Source: Methanococcus aeolicus Nankai-3
Lineage (GTDB): Archaea; AGJL01; Methanococci; Methanococcales; Methanococcaceae
Assembly (NCBI RefSeq): GCF_000017185.1
Contig: NC_009635.1
Coordinates: 746,563 to 810,562 of the forward strand
Length of the DNA stretch: 64,000 bases
Reading direction: 5' to 3'
Shown piece after piece: positions 50,756 through 57,647 of the stretch. Under the pieces are notes generated by a model. That model saw only the letters and a list, made by a program, of their open reading frames with translations, was not told the DNA's origin and did no database searches. Both the position numbers and the translations under genes were made by a program. Positions within the stretch are counted from its first letter, which is position 1, and each line of letters starts with the position of its first letter.

Positions 50756-51826
50756 TTAATATTTAATTATGCAGTCATAGATTCCCAAAACTCCCAAATC
50801 ATTTAATTCATTTAATAAATCTTCTTTTTTATTTTCATTTATTAATATTATGGCAATTCCGCCTCCCCCCGCACCAGATAATTTAGCACCATATCCTAAT
50901 TTTTGCCCAATTTCTACGATTTTATTTAGTTTTTCAGTGGATACTCCCAATTTATTTAATAATTTATGATTTTCCACCATTAATTTTCCTAACTCTTCCT
51001 TATTTTTCACAAATTCGGCTTTTTCTACAATTTCTCCAATCTGTTTAAATATCTGCCTTTTTTGTGGATGTTTTGCCACTTCATTTACTAATTCGGCTGT
51101 TTTTTTAATTCTTCGTTCGGAATGCACTATTAAAAATTGACAACCTGCCAATAAATTATTAAAATCATTATTTTCAATTGGTTTAATTTTGTTGTCTTTT
51201 ATTTTCAGAGCTCCCCCATATATTATGGTGGATGTGTCCGTTATACTTGCTATACCTTGAACCTCTTTTTCTACGGTATATGCTATTTTTGATATTTCTT
51301 CTTTTGATAATATTAAATTATGCACTGTTAAAATAGATTTAATAATAGTTATTATAATTGATGCCGAAGAACCCAACCCACAACTAATGGGAATATTTGA
51401 AGTGATGGTTAATTTAAATGGCTTTATATTATTATTTATAGGATTTAATTTCATTAAATTTTTATCCATTAAGTAATTAACTGTATTTTTTAGAGTAGAT
51501 GCCACATATTTTAAATCATTATCGTAGTTGCTTAGATTTATATTTAGAATATCCTGCGGATTTATTTCTACTTTTTTGTTTAAATCAATTAAATCAATTA
51601 TTATTGGTTCTGGTGTTGTTGGTTGTTGGTTGTTGATAATATAATCATAACACTCCAATAACCCACTAATTTTTAAATCAACTGCCATTGAAAGTGCCAT
51701 ATATCCACCCACTACGGCATGCTCACCAAATAATATGACTTTTGAAGGCGTTTCTATTGTGGTTATTTTGCTATCATTGTTGTTGCCGTCATATTTAATA
51801 TTATTAATATTACCAATATTATTCAT
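50756..51826 (-). CDS. mvk: Mevalonate kinase
   Basis: A 356-residue GHMP kinase: PSKVILFGEHAVVGGY near residue 29, PISCGLGSSASIIIT (ATP motif) near 147, and KLSGAGGGGIAIIL near the end. It phosphorylates mevalonate for isoprenoid lipids. The ATG at 51826 overlaps the TAA of selB (TAATG), so it is translationally coupled; GGTGGGGAT precedes it. The longer frame begins with GTG inside that site. The N-terminal Asn-rich stretch is extended. One TIR element lies downstream. Confidence 0.94.
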   Translation of the reverse strand: MNNIGNINNIKYDGNNNDSKITTIETPSKVILFGEHAVVGGYMALSMAVDLKISGLLECYDYIINNQQPTTPEPIIIDLIDLNKKVEINPQDILNINLSNYDNDLKYVASTLKNTVNYLMDKNLMKLNPINNNIKPFKLTITSNIPISCGLGSSASIIITIIKSILTVHNLILSKEEISKIAYTVEKEVQGIASITDTSTIIYGGALKIKDNKIKPIENNDFNNLLAGCQFLIVHSERRIKKTAELVNEVAKHPQKRQIFKQIGEIVEKAEFVKNKEELGKLMVENHKLLNKLGVSTEKLNKIVEIGQKLGYGAKLSGAGGGGIAIILINENKKEDLLNELNDLGVLGIYDCIIKY

Positions 51827-53232
51827 TATCCCCACCGTCTAAGCCTATTTAAAATTACTTTATCTTTATTGCTAACTTCACCATCAAAATCAGCCGTTAA
51901 ATATCCTTTTGTCCCAAATGTGTTTTTTAATTTTCCAGTTATATTTTTATCTGGGAGCTCCACCACCTCACCAATTAATTTTTCAGCCGAAGATTTAGAA
52001 TTTGCCAACCCCTCTATAAATACTCTATTTTTATCTATTTTTATATTTCCTGTTCTAATTACTTCTTTTTTAATATTCAAGTCTTTCATTGATTTAAATT
52101 CTACTATTTCCCCCCTACCGCATATTCTTAGTGTCGTAGGTGGTAAATCCAACCTTGTAATAAGTATATTGTCCCCTATTTCTGCCATTACTTTCTCGTC
52201 AAGCTCAAATGAACAGTAGCATTCATCCCCTTTTTGTATTTCTTTTAATATTATATTTTCCTCCTTTCCTTTAAATTTGATTTTTTTAAATGGAACCACA
52301 ATTGCTGGAACAATTAACATTCCTACATTTAAATGAACCTTCATTTTTGGTTTTATGTTGTATCTAAATATGTCGGACATTTTTATTTTAGCCACAATTT
52401 TATCCACTATTTCCAATTTAGAATTTGAGGATGTGAGAATACAGCCCCTATAAATTTGCTTTGCATCTACTCCATGAAGTGCCATTCCAACCCTGTCCCC
52501 CATCATTGCCTCCTTTTCTTCCTTTTTAAATCGCTGTATGCTTTTTACCTTTATATTATTCATATTTATTGGCATAATTTTTAAGTCATCCTGCCCTACG
52601 GATACTTTTCCTTTTAATATTGTTCCAGTTATTACTGTCCCAATTCCCTTTATTGGGAAGGCGTGGTCTATTGGCATCTTAAAATATTCGTCGGAGCTCC
52701 TTGTTATATTCAAACTATTCAATGTTTTATGAATAGTATTTTTTAGATTATCGATATTTTTATTTTCTTTTGCAGATATTTCTATTATTTGACTATCTTT
52801 TAAATTTTCCGTAGAATTTAATACTGCACTTACTATTGATTTTGTTCTTTTTATTTCTTCTTCTGTTGCCAGATCTATTTTTGTAATTACAGCAATGGTA
52901 GGAATGTTAAAATAATCTAATATTAGTAAATGCTCGCCTGTTTGTGTTTTTGGTCCTTCTTTTGCATCTACAACCAATATTGCCAGATCTATTATATCTG
53001 CTGCACTAACTACTGCCTTTATTAAGTCGGCATGTCCTGGTGCATCCACCAATGTGATAATATAATCGGGCATATTAAATGAAGAAAAACCTATATCAAT
53101 TGTAATTCCTCGTTTTTTTGATTCTGGTAATTTATCCAATGATGAAGTTGATGCTATTTCTGTTAAAACTCTTGCTAATGTCGTTTTTCCGTGGTCAATG
53201 TGTCCAAATATTCCTAAATTTATATTTTTCAT
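51826..53232 (-). CDS. selB: Selenocysteine-specific elongation factor
   Basis: A 468-residue GTPase: [14 protein letters not shown] (G1), DAPGH (G3), TKIDL (G4), and EF-Tu-like domains 2 and 3 with a short extension. Matches archaeal SelB that brings Sec-tRNA to UGA codons with a SECIS in the 3' UTR. The organism therefore probably makes selenoproteins, but none with an internal TGA was found in this window. Contains GGAGCTCC at 51954 and 52693. Coupled to mvk downstream. RBS AAAGGGATATAAT. Confidence 0.92.
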   Translation of the reverse strand: MKNINLGIFGHIDHGKTTLARVLTEIASTSSLDKLPESKKRGITIDIGFSSFNMPDYIITLVDAPGHADLIKAVVSAADIIDLAILVVDAKEGPKTQTGEHLLILDYFNIPTIAVITKIDLATEEEIKRTKSIVSAVLNSTENLKDSQIIEISAKENKNIDNLKNTIHKTLNSLNITRSSDEYFKMPIDHAFPIKGIGTVITGTILKGKVSVGQDDLKIMPINMNNIKVKSIQRFKKEEKEAMMGDRVGMALHGVDAKQIYRGCILTSSNSKLEIVDKIVAKIKMSDIFRYNIKPKMKVHLNVGMLIVPAIVVPFKKIKFKGKEENIILKEIQKGDECYCSFELDEKVMAEIGDNILITRLDLPPTTLRICGRGEIVEFKSMKDLNIKKEVIRTGNIKIDKNRVFIEGLANSKSSAEKLIGEVVELPDKNITGKLKNTFGTKGYLTADFDGEVSNKDKVILNRLRRWG

Positions 53233-53519: not shown

Positions 53520-53806
53520 TAGTTAATCTTCAATAACTGTCCTTATTCGTCATATCGTAAAAATTCCTCTGGAATTTTGAGGTCCCCCCGGGATTCAATA
53601 ATCTCTGATTATTGCATATCGTAAAAATCGCTTTGCGATTTTGAGAATTATTAAATAAAATCCTTTTAGGATTTTATACAAAATCGAAGATTTTGTAAAT
53701 AAAATCTCTTAGAGATTTTGTAAACGAATTTCTTCATATATTGATAATATAGTAGAGATTTTAGCTTTTAGGACGGTTTAATGAAAACGACCGAAGATTG
53801 ACTATA
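53520..53806 (+). repeat. Intergenic TIR element, copy 11 (longest, six hairpins)
   Basis: Starts TAGTTAATCTTCAATAACTG and ends AACGACCGAAGATTGACTATA. At 287 bp it is more than twice the shortest copy because of a run of hairpins between 53559 and 53719. It ends 17 bp before the protease gene start. Confidence 0.8.
53559..53719. repeat. Array of six mini-hairpins in copy 11
   Basis: In order: AAAATTCC/GGAATTTT (53559-53578), CAATAATC/GATTATTG (53596-53614), AAAATCGC/GCGATTTT (53623-53642), AAAATCC/GGATTTT (53657-53675), AAAATC/GATTTT (53680-53694), AAAATCTC/GAGATTTT (53701-53719). Stem bases differ but pair in every case. Confidence 0.75.
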
Positions 53807-54523: not shown

Positions 54524-56380
54524 ATGTATGAATGGAAGTTAAATGATATTGTAGATAATGGATTATGTGCCAAATGTGGAACATGTGTTGTTGTATGTCC
54601 TAACAATATATTAGAATTCGAGGAAGTTCCAAAACTAACCGAAGAATGTTTAAGAAAAGGATATGGAATGTGCCATGATGTATGCCCGAGAGTTTCATCA
54701 GGTAAATACCAAATAAGCATTAGGGAAAACTTTAAAGAAGAACATTACTATGGAAAAGGAGATATAGAAGGGCAAGACGGTGGAGTAGTTTCAACATTTT
54801 TAAAACATTTATTGGAAAACAAAAAAATAGATGGTGCAATTGTAGTTGGAGACGAGTGCTGGAAACCTGTTTCATTAATTGTTCAAAATCCCGAAGATAT
54901 AGAAAAATCAGCGAAATCAAAATATGCTGTATCAACACTTGAAGCCCTAAGGGAAGCCGGAGAAATGGGTATTGAAAAGGTAGCCGTTGTTGGATTACCA
55001 TGTCAAATAGCAGGCCTTAGAAAACTTCAATATTTCCCATATTTAGCAAAATATGATGGGGAGCTCGGCAAAAATGGAAAATTAGCAAAATTACCAAAAA
55101 TAGAATATCTTATTGGATTGTTATGCACAGAGAAGTTTGAATATGATAAATTAAAAGAAGCCCTTGCAAAGAACGATATAAAAATTGAAGATGTAAAGAA
55201 ATTTGACATCAAAAAAGGTAAATTAATTATAATTACAGAAGATGAAGAGTATAAAATACCTTTAAAAGATATTGAAATGAATGCCGGCTGTAAAATGTGT
55301 AGGGACTTTGATGCTGAAATGGCCGATGTATCAGTTGGATGTGTTGGAAGTCCAGACGGCTACTCAACAGTGACCATCAGAACAGAGAAAGGGGAAGAAA
55401 TTAAAAATGCAGTGGAGTTAAACGAAGGTGTAGAATTAGCCCCTATTGAAAAATTAAAAGAATTAAAACTTAACAGATTCAAAAAAGAACTCGAAAGAAG
55501 AAAAGAAAATAATGAAAAAATATCATTCTATTGGCTTGCTGATTATGCGGGAGTAGGTAAAAGAGCAGATAACGACTACTTTATAAGAGTAAGAGCAAAA
55601 CCTGCTGGATGGTATTCGTTGGATGAAGTTAAAGAGATAGTAAAAATAACTGAAAAATATGACGGCAAAATAAAGATGACAAATAGAGGAGGCTTCGAAA
55701 TCCACCATATAACTCCATTTTATGCAGAAGACATGGCCCTGGAACTTGCTGAAAAAGACCTAATTACAGGTTCGGAAGGACCACTTGTAAGGGCAACTCT
55801 TGCATGTCCGGGGGAAGGAAACTGTGGAAGTGGATTAATAAATACCACAGAATTATGTTCAATTATCGAAGATAATTTCATAGAACATCCTGCACCATAT
55901 AAATTCAAAATTGCAATAAGTGGATGTCCAAATAAATGTGTAAGACCTCAAATCCACGAAATAGGTATTGCAGGCGTTAAATTCCCAATAACTAATGAAG
56001 AAAATTGTAATGGATGCGGAAGATGTGCCGATATTTGTAAAGTCGAAGCAATAGACATTAGGGGAGATACATCATATACAAACTACAATATATGTATAGG
56101 TTGTGGAAAATGTATAAAAGGCTGTCCAAATGAAGGTAGAGATATGAAAGAAGAAGGATTTATGGTATTCGTTGGCGGAAAATCAGGTAGGGAAGTAATT
56201 GAAGGAATAAGCATGAAATTAATGAGTATAGAGGAAATAGTAAATTTAATTGATAAAGTATTAATTGTATACCATAAATATGCCCAAAAACCGCAAAGAG
56301 AAAGATTGGGGGCAGTTATGGCAAGGGTTGGAAAAGGAAAATTCTTAGAAGAAGTTAAAGAATTGATGGAGAAAGAATAA
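54524..56380 (+). CDS. fsr: F420-dependent sulfite reductase (Fsr)
   Basis: A 618-residue fusion. The N-terminal half is an F420H2 dehydrogenase (FrhB/FpoF-like) with a ferredoxin site CAKCGTCVVVC (Cys 15, 18, 21, 25). The C-terminal half is a sulfite reductase: CPGEGNC (about 428-434) and SGCPNKCVRP (about 467) are the siroheme-[4Fe-4S] Cys pattern, and an inserted ferredoxin has CNGCGRCADIC (about 494) and CIGCGKCIKGC (about 524). It reduces sulfite to sulfide with F420H2, protecting methyl-coenzyme M reductase and giving sulfur. RBS AAGGTGATATA. Followed by DsrE-like and DUF169 genes. Confidence 0.93.
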   Translation: MYEWKLNDIVDNGLCAKCGTCVVVCPNNILEFEEVPKLTEECLRKGYGMCHDVCPRVSSGKYQISIRENFKEEHYYGKGDIEGQDGGVVSTFLKHLLENKKIDGAIVVGDECWKPVSLIVQNPEDIEKSAKSKYAVSTLEALREAGEMGIEKVAVVGLPCQIAGLRKLQYFPYLAKYDGELGKNGKLAKLPKIEYLIGLLCTEKFEYDKLKEALAKNDIKIEDVKKFDIKKGKLIIITEDEEYKIPLKDIEMNAGCKMCRDFDAEMADVSVGCVGSPDGYSTVTIRTEKGEEIKNAVELNEGVELAPIEKLKELKLNRFKKELERRKENNEKISFYWLADYAGVGKRADNDYFIRVRAKPAGWYSLDEVKEIVKITEKYDGKIKMTNRGGFEIHHITPFYAEDMALELAEKDLITGSEGPLVRATLACPGEGNCGSGLINTTELCSIIEDNFIEHPAPYKFKIAISGCPNKCVRPQIHEIGIAGVKFPITNEENCNGCGRCADICKVEAIDIRGDTSYTNYNICIGCGKCIKGCPNEGRDMKEEGFMVFVGGKSGREVIEGISMKLMSIEEIVNLIDKVLIVYHKYAQKPQRERLGAVMARVGKGKFLEEVKELMEKE

Positions 56381-56490
56381 TCATTTCAACTTTGCTTTTT
56401 CTTACTCTACTATCTTCTTTACCTTAATTAATTATTATTTTAACTATTATTTTAACTATTTATTATTTTTTTATTTTATAGGGGGATTTT

Positions 56491-56838
56491 ATGGACTATA
56501 ATGTTGTTTTTCATATTGAAGAGGATATATTAGAAAGGCTCAATATTGCCCTCAACATGAGCTCCAATCTATTAAGGAATATAAAAACCGCTAAAATTGC
56601 AATGGTTTCAACCCACAATGCTCCAAAGCTATTTTTAAAAAAAAACTTAACTGGGGATGTATGTGAAAGGATAAAATTTTTGGCATCTAAAAATGCAAAA
56701 TTTTTTGTGTGCCGTAATGCCTTGGAGGGCTTAGGTATCCATGAATCAGAACTTATTGCTGAATGCGAGGTAATTCCTGCGGGAATAGTTAAGCTCATAG
56801 AACTTCAAAATAACGGTTTTGCATATATTAAACCTTAA
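56491..56838 (+). CDS. DsrE-like sulfur-relay family protein
   Basis: A 115-residue alpha/beta protein: MDYNVVFHIEEDILERLNIAL, AKIAMVSTHNA, NAKFFVCRNALEGLGI and CEVIPAGIVKLIELQNNGFAYIKP is the DsrE/F-fold pattern, with Cys in the middle and in the last third as candidate persulfide carriers. It follows Fsr by 110 bp in the same direction, so a role in sulfur handling is plausible. RBS AGGGGGATTTT. GGGGG is a stronger site than usual. Confidence 0.75.
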   Translation: MDYNVVFHIEEDILERLNIALNMSSNLLRNIKTAKIAMVSTHNAPKLFLKKNLTGDVCERIKFLASKNAKFFVCRNALEGLGIHESELIAECEVIPAGIVKLIELQNNGFAYIKP

Positions 56839-56963
56839 TACATGATGGCATATCATAATCCACATTAAATTAAACTTTTGAATATATTAATTTCTTTTTT
56901 AACATAACAATACTTATAATACTTATTTTTGAAAAAAATGTAAGAAATTATCCTGGTGATATG

Positions 56964-57647
56964 ATGAATATTAAGGAGCTCGGTAAGATGATGGAAGAAC
57001 TATTGGGATTAAACTATCCAGCAGTTGCCGTAAAACTTGCAAAATCCCCTGGTGATATACCAGAAGGATACAGTGAGATAAAAGATAAGATAAGACATTG
57101 TGAAATGGTTCAAAAAGTAAGAAAAGAAGGCATAAAATTCTATGCCACAAATGAAAATCATTTATGTAAAGGGGGAGCTCATAATATTGGGGTCAATCAA
57201 AGTCCCAATATAGAAGACTTGGAAATAAAATTGCATGTGAAACTGGGAAATTTTAAGACCTATGAAAGTTCAAAGAAAACCATGGAATTAGTTCCGAAAA
57301 TTAGAGAACAAATGTATGCAAGTGTTTATGCACCGCTAAGTGATGCAGATTTTAAACCTGATTCAATAGTTGTGGTTACCACTCCAAAGATTGGACTTAG
57401 GCTATCTCAGGCATTATTATACAGCAAGGGTGGGAGAATCCATGCAAGCTTTGCAGGAACTCAGTCTTTATGTGGCGATGCAGTTGCAGCAGTTAAACTC
57501 AGTGGGACAGCAAATGCAACATTGGCATGCAATGGCTCAAGAAAATATGCAAAAATCGAAGATAATGAGATGGTGGTTGCATTTCCTCCATCGGAATTAG
57601 AAAATATAATTGACGCATTGAAACATTTTAGAGAAGTATGGGGATAA
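56964..57647 (+). CDS. DUF169 family protein
   Basis: A 227-residue protein of DUF169: LNYPAVAVKLAKSPGDIPEG, IRHCEMVQKVRKEGIKFYAT, HLCKGGAHNIG, QALLYSKGGRIHASFAGTQSLCGD. Conserved cysteines at CEM, LCKGG and LCGD suggest a metal or cluster site. Family function is unknown, with members near redox genes. Third gene after Fsr on this strand, so it may belong to sulfur assimilation. The frame opens at ATG 56961; the second ATG 56964 has the usual GGTGAT-N3-ATG geometry and I chose it. Confidence 0.75.
   Translation: MNIKELGKMMEELLGLNYPAVAVKLAKSPGDIPEGYSEIKDKIRHCEMVQKVRKEGIKFYATNENHLCKGGAHNIGVNQSPNIEDLEIKLHVKLGNFKTYESSKKTMELVPKIREQMYASVYAPLSDADFKPDSIVVVTTPKIGLRLSQALLYSKGGRIHASFAGTQSLCGDAVAAVKLSGTANATLACNGSRKYAKIEDNEMVVAFPPSELENIIDALKHFREVWG

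Follow-up and report, generated by a model that had tools for sequence, protein, structure and literature searches.

The fsr locus of Methanococcus aeolicus

The window is a stretch of 64,000 nucleotides from Methanococcus aeolicus Nankai-3 (NC_009635.1, positions 746,563 to 810,562), whose genome comprises 1,569,500 bases on one contig. Within it, three genes that were taken from the ORF list and that match Pfam families above the cut-offs follow one another on the plus strand. The first, fsr (54524-56380), codes for a Group I F420-dependent sulfite reductase of 618 residues, the second (56491-56838) for a DsrE-like protein of the MTH1491 type with 115 residues, and the third (56961-57647) for a DUF169 (COG2043) protein of 228 residues, a second, divergent paralogue. 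An earlier note on this DNA had given the trio the same identities, with conserved cysteines in the last protein, and these assignments hold.

The genes are separated by two AT-rich gaps, one of 110 bp (56381-56490), in which T runs and an RBS-like GGGGGA ahead of the ATG were seen by eye, and one of 122 bp (56839-56960), which, also judged by eye, could contain a separate promoter. Gaps of this size do not prove an operon. The gene for a hydrogenase-maturation protease, frhD (Pfam/NCBIfam annotation), precedes fsr by 224 bp in the same orientation and seems not to belong to the group. Upstream of frhD, six short AT-rich inverted repeats (arms of 8-18 nt, loops of 1-3 nt) were noted one after another in the intergenic DNA at 53560-53728.

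The product of fsr combines the Pfam domains FrhB_FdhB_N, FrhB_FdhB_C, NIR_SIR and NIR_SIR_ferr, and both these domains and the PDB alignment divide it into an F420-oxidase (FrhB-like) half and a sulfite reductase half on a single chain. Residues 1-617 align to PDB entry 7npa_A over the full length and without gaps (1197 bits). The entries 7npa and 7np8 are the Group I enzymes of Methanothermococcus thermolithotrophicus and Methanocaldococcus jannaschii; compared with them, the protein shows no difference that is likely to matter for function, whereas the downstream genes differ. The sulfite-binding residues Arg355, Arg423, Lys460 and Lys462, as given for Group I in PMC10229431, are all kept. 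The protein is 83% identical to an orthologue in another Methanococcales genome (G033), and its sequence characterises it as an ordinary Group I enzyme. An Fsr homolog is listed for this strain in PMC3448663.

Matches to fsr (E up to 1e-60) were found in 27 of the 36 Methanococcales genomes. In the window, as in seven further genomes that share its genus code, the ribosomal protein gene rpsJ (S10) lies downstream on the opposite strand; it comes directly after fsr in five of these seven, and one extra ORF stands between the two genes in G023 and G031. Two genomes, G033 and G007, carry second fsr copies (L076, L081), each preceded by genes for a NarK-like transporter and a protein resembling nitrate reductase, the latter gene being split into two frames beside the G033 copy; PMC13381448 has already described an operon of this kind in M. 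thermolithotrophicus and Methanocaldococcus sp. FS406-22. In an incomplete genome, fsr is present in two pieces with stops (G030:C115:22511-24327; L060, L063), through decay or sequencing error. Outside the order, several Fsr proteins from the phylum of the Methanobrevibacter genome G036 have an N-terminal extension of about 70-80 residues (L216 1489-3558, with similar lengths in L217-L228), and the only one tested, that of L216, scores as a HAAS domain (34.3 bits against a cut-off of 27).

Conservation of the three-gene arrangement

The surroundings of fsr were surveyed at 58 places in 54 genomes, made up of 29 places in 27 Methanococcales genomes, one of these places being split in two, and 29 further places in 27 other genomes. 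Most loci had flanks of about 1.5 kb and 20 had 6 kb, with shorter ones where a contig ended; these flanks were screened with profiles of DUF169 and of the DsrE type of the window, each built from few sequences. Within these flanks, DUF169 or a DsrE protein of this type occurs near fsr at one place out of 58, the window itself. Conversely, all seven genomes of genus g2 encode DUF169, and none of them has a match to fsr. Since the pair is missing at the other fsr places and DUF169 is kept in a genus that lacks fsr, the trio does not constitute a conserved sulfite unit. A conserved fsr-dsrE-DUF169 operon was therefore rejected, and a sulfite-handling group in the sense of a conserved unit is not supported; the co-occurrence near fsr in relatives, which had been suggested as a check, did not materialise, so that one half of the refuting condition given in the note applies. 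The placement of dsrE and DUF169 between fsr and rpsJ is specific to this species.

In one congener by genus code (G023), the position after fsr is occupied by another sulfur gene, a single-domain rhodanese (PF00581, 78.7 bits) that follows at a distance of 76 bp on the same strand. Its ORF of 107 residues is the sole short rhodanese match in the 36 genomes, the other frames having at least 205 residues. Thus, the slot downstream of fsr holds different sulfurtransferase-family genes in two species of one genus code.

The three neighbours could nevertheless be unrelated, with a duplicate of DUF169 and a dsrE of whatever origin having landed between fsr and rpsJ by chance. This is a serious possibility, if a somewhat doubtful one, and it agrees with the single occurrence of the trio, with the separate gaps and their T runs, and with the maintenance of fsr in other genomes that lack the pair. 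It is opposed by two estimates. The chance that two or more of the 29 Methanococcales places have a sulfurtransferase-family gene immediately behind fsr, as two do, is about 0.002, a rough figure that was calculated post hoc and assumes about 1600 genes per genome. For a copy of DUF169, the random expectation of having a DsrE-fold gene next to it is about 1%, given seven DsrE matches in this genome and the same assumed gene number. A mobile origin was sought for both genes: 19 plasmid records matched the DsrE protein, all with less than 60% identity, and DUF169 gave no phage match and one weak plasmid match, so that no origin was found for either.

The DsrE-like protein

The DsrE-like protein matches PF02635 with 37.4 bits (cut-off 22.7) and two structures of stand-alone DsrE-fold proteins, namely 1l1s (MTH1491; E 1.1e-11) and 2pd2 (ST0148; E 2.6e-6). 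It shares with both a similar length, the family and an aligned cysteine, Cys74, and is about 28% identical to MTH1491. We know of no tested function of MTH1491.

The DsrEFH and TusBCD complexes are encoded by three neighbouring genes E, F and H, whereas dsrE of the window stands alone. It also differs from YedF, in that Pfam detects no TusA domain and NCBIfam gives no hit, which places it below the cut-off of TIGR03527. The 115-residue type has a match in one of the 36 Methanococcales genomes, its own, which does not extend to the DsrE family as a whole, for which Pfam matches are found in 36 of 36. M. aeolicus has seven DsrE matches, the mean being 2.8 per genome. A dsrEFH/dsrE2-like cluster of DsrE-fold genes was noted by eye elsewhere in the same genome (G000:C1, about 988-989 kb; L209 4998-6439).

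The DUF169 protein and its paralogue

The DUF169 protein of the window matches PF02596 with 193.7 bits (cut-off 27) over profile positions 2-208 of 209. It contains exactly four cysteines, at positions 47, 69, 171 and 190, of which the first three are found in all 66 DUF169 proteins of the context set and the fourth in 63. Judged by family membership it is therefore a typical DUF169/COG2043 protein with the four family cysteines, set apart as a divergent paralogue beside fsr. The genome's ordinary copy (G000:C1:524722-525348; L084) is 60% identical to it, and among the 34 Methanococcales genomes that encode DUF169, M. aeolicus is the only one with two copies.

In a tree of 57 of the 66 rows, calculated with a quick method and SH-aLRT support, the window protein falls inside Methanococcales (support 98), where its terminal branch is long at 0.48; its top identity in the set is 66%, to the copy of L092. 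The nine divergent rows that were left out come from L115, L116, L186, L189 (twice), L190, L191, L192 and L193. At 25 positions that are common to 19 or 20 of 20 ordinary copies, the window protein deviates, while retaining the four cysteines, so its role may have changed. The simplest reading of the sequences would be a fast-evolving Methanococcales paralogue.

An AlphaFold2 model based on 14 sequences (pLDDT 89.5, pTM 0.89) predicts Cys47 and Cys171 as the second residues of helices, and Cys69 and Cys190 directly before helices. DUF169 has no sequence match in the PDB. Foldseek returned no PDB match for the model at E up to 0.001 and the best Z of VIA-align was 4.3, for thiolase-like rows, a score within the stated noise of that tool and therefore given no weight; on the model, these searches neither show nor exclude a new fold.

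A recurrent neighbourhood of DUF169

DUF169 is widespread in methanogens: 34 of 36 Methanococcales genomes encode it, as do at least 147 of the 151 that represent the phylum of G036. In Bacillota, it was found in one of 392 sampled genomes, the genome at the centre of the sample. A contig scan yielded 13 DUF169 loci, nine in Methanococcales, two in Methanobrevibacter and two in Solobacterium.

In M. aeolicus, the ordinary copy is followed by a thioredoxin of the MJ0307 family (109.9 bits, cut-off 92.75), a TusA-TusA-DsrE fusion (PF01206 twice and PF02635) and DUF5400. The fusion is reminiscent of YedF and related TusA-DsrE relay proteins, but scores 28.5 of the 110 bits needed for YedF and is thus far under the cut-off. 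By match coordinates, it lies on the same strand and within 2.4 kb of an ordinary DUF169 gene in 22 of 34 genomes that carry it. Among the matches listed, these are all 13 of family f1 and all nine of the phylum of G036, and none of the 12 of family f2; in the 12 f2 genomes with both genes, the fusion is far from DUF169 or on another contig. In 15 of 20 Methanococcales loci, the thioredoxin gene is no more than four same-strand genes away from DUF169. Seven loci from the phylum of G036 were read, in which the fusion comes directly after DUF169, and the two ORFs overlap in six of them, by 10 bp in five and by 101 bp in one, where a longer ORF was called. Fusions were recognised by ORF length (273-301 residues in Methanococcales, 269-308 in the phylum of G036) and confirmed by sequence in ten Methanococcales loci and in seven of the nine in the other phylum; a partial DsrE match in a 372-residue frame of G099 was excluded from the count.

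The fusion-linked DUF169 copies of the phylum of G036 and all Methanococcales copies in the tree together form one clade of 28 rows with an SH-aLRT support of 100. The genomes of that phylum in which the link occurs are probably Methanothermobacter or close to it, since one of them, G182, encodes a protein identical to MTH1491 over the printed stretch. Elsewhere, DUF169 is often without this company. The fusion is missing in 11 of the 36 Methanococcales genomes (9 of 22 in f1, 2 of 14 in f2), some of which are 97-99% complete, and in 142 of the 151 genomes of the phylum of G036, where just nine have it. From this phylum 40 loci were fetched, and 33 of them lack both the fusion and an MJ0307-type thioredoxin within four same-strand genes, in a tally that covers these two genes. 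As DUF169 is common without the fusion, the link with sulfur is demonstrated for one clade and not for the whole family.

One of these 33 loci, L186 (2932-6529), shows a different setting. Its divergent DUF169 copy is placed directly between the gene of an arsR-family regulator and one whose product has weak Fe-S motifs (under the Pfam cut-offs), and is followed by the gene of another thioredoxin; a gene for an SBF-family transporter is close by on the opposite strand. Such an arsenic-operon-like setting would suit a DUF169 protein that deals with thiol or metalloid stress, of the redox or arsenic type, and that is no partner of sulfur carriers. This explanation is quite improbable, because the L186 copy is one of the divergent rows outside the tree and the clade to which the window copy belongs is found beside TusA/DsrE genes.

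A proposed sulfur relay and its alternatives

The earlier note had suggested two possible roles for DsrE and DUF169, the relay of sulfide or persulfide and the binding of siroheme-related metal. The metal idea found no support, none of the eight annotated window proteins being a siroheme-synthesis protein; a tetrapyrrole link of DUF169 was set aside, a single instance having been seen in L190, where the gene upstream of a divergent copy encodes a TP_methylase. The relay idea fares better in part, as one DUF169 clade adjoins the TusA-TusA-DsrE fusion, and often the thioredoxin, in two GTDB phyla, and as a congener has its rhodanese in the same slot after fsr, whereas the many DUF169 genes without the fusion speak against it. 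What we favour, tentatively and slightly short of calling it an even case, is a species-specific sulfur-transfer pair beside Fsr, together with a DUF169 clade that forms an unrecognised part of sulfur trafficking in methanogens.

Proteins of the DsrE type bear sulfur on a cysteine, as is known for DsrEFH (PMC3397948). By such chemistry, the TusA-TusA-DsrE carrier would hold sulfur as a cysteine persulfide, and the ordinary DUF169 protein of the clade would work with this carrier as a thiol or Fe-S partner in a methanogen sulfur relay, in which the thioredoxin could reset disulfides or release sulfide. In the window, by analogy, Fsr would reduce sulfite to sulfide with F420H2, Cys74 of DsrE might carry sulfur near this site of sulfide production, and the DUF169 protein might hand the sulfur on or reduce it. 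We infer these transfer steps from Fsr to DsrE to DUF169, as we do the persulfide chemistry, the partnership of DsrE with DUF169 and any link to Fsr or sulfite; gene neighbourhood is not function. They are opposed by the lack of conservation of the pair near fsr, by the separate gaps and by the divergence of the window copy. A more specific version, in which the DUF169 proteins of Methanococcales and Methanothermobacter are an unrecognised four-cysteine (Fe-S or persulfide) relay component that works with TusA-DsrE and thioredoxin, and in which the spare copy of the window and its own DsrE beside Fsr channel the sulfur of sulfite into assimilation, is unlikely.

The element moved could instead be selenium, the pair and the TusA-DsrE/DUF169 cassette handling it while Fsr also reduces selenite. 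The gene selB is located in the window (51826-53232), the fusion has its distant likeness to YedF, and MtFsr is described in PMC10229431 as reducing selenite in vitro. Furthermore, PMC11097638 gives transcripts annotated as tusA/tusD, perhaps of other genes, as 4.5-4.6 log2 up on selenium depletion in M. maripaludis; there, another DsrE/DsrF-like transcript is down (-2.7 log2). The cassette also occurs in Methanothermobacter-like genomes, whereas PMC5322559 confines SelD in archaea to Methanopyrales, Methanococcales, Halobacteriales and Methanomicrobiales and states that archaea lack YedF. Overall, a selenium role appears very improbable.

Implications for methanogen sulfur metabolism

Published mentions of DUF169 are scattered. 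A STRING row in PMC5322559 links a DUF169 protein with YedE in Slackia, DUF169 is occasionally found in SepRS operons (PMC8762117), and the locus number of a Desulfovibrio DUF169 gene, mutants of which have high fitness with nitrate, is next to that of a TauE-type permease (PMC4001038); the excerpts of these three papers give no tested DUF169 function. PMC5322559 was the only paper retrieved for DUF169 together with DsrE and PMC4001038 the only one for COG2043, none was retrieved for MJ0307 with thioredoxin, and PMC12828279 was discarded because its match is DUF1691, another name. In the portions of the DUF169/COG2043 literature found by word match, a partnership with TusA/DsrE in methanogens is not proposed.

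Methanogens that grow on sulfide have to deliver sulfur to Fe-S clusters, Cys-tRNA and thio-tRNA, by a route that is not known to have been established. Because one clade of DUF169 recurs beside TusA/DsrE and thioredoxin genes, its members are a direct and testable candidate for sulfur transfer in these archaea.
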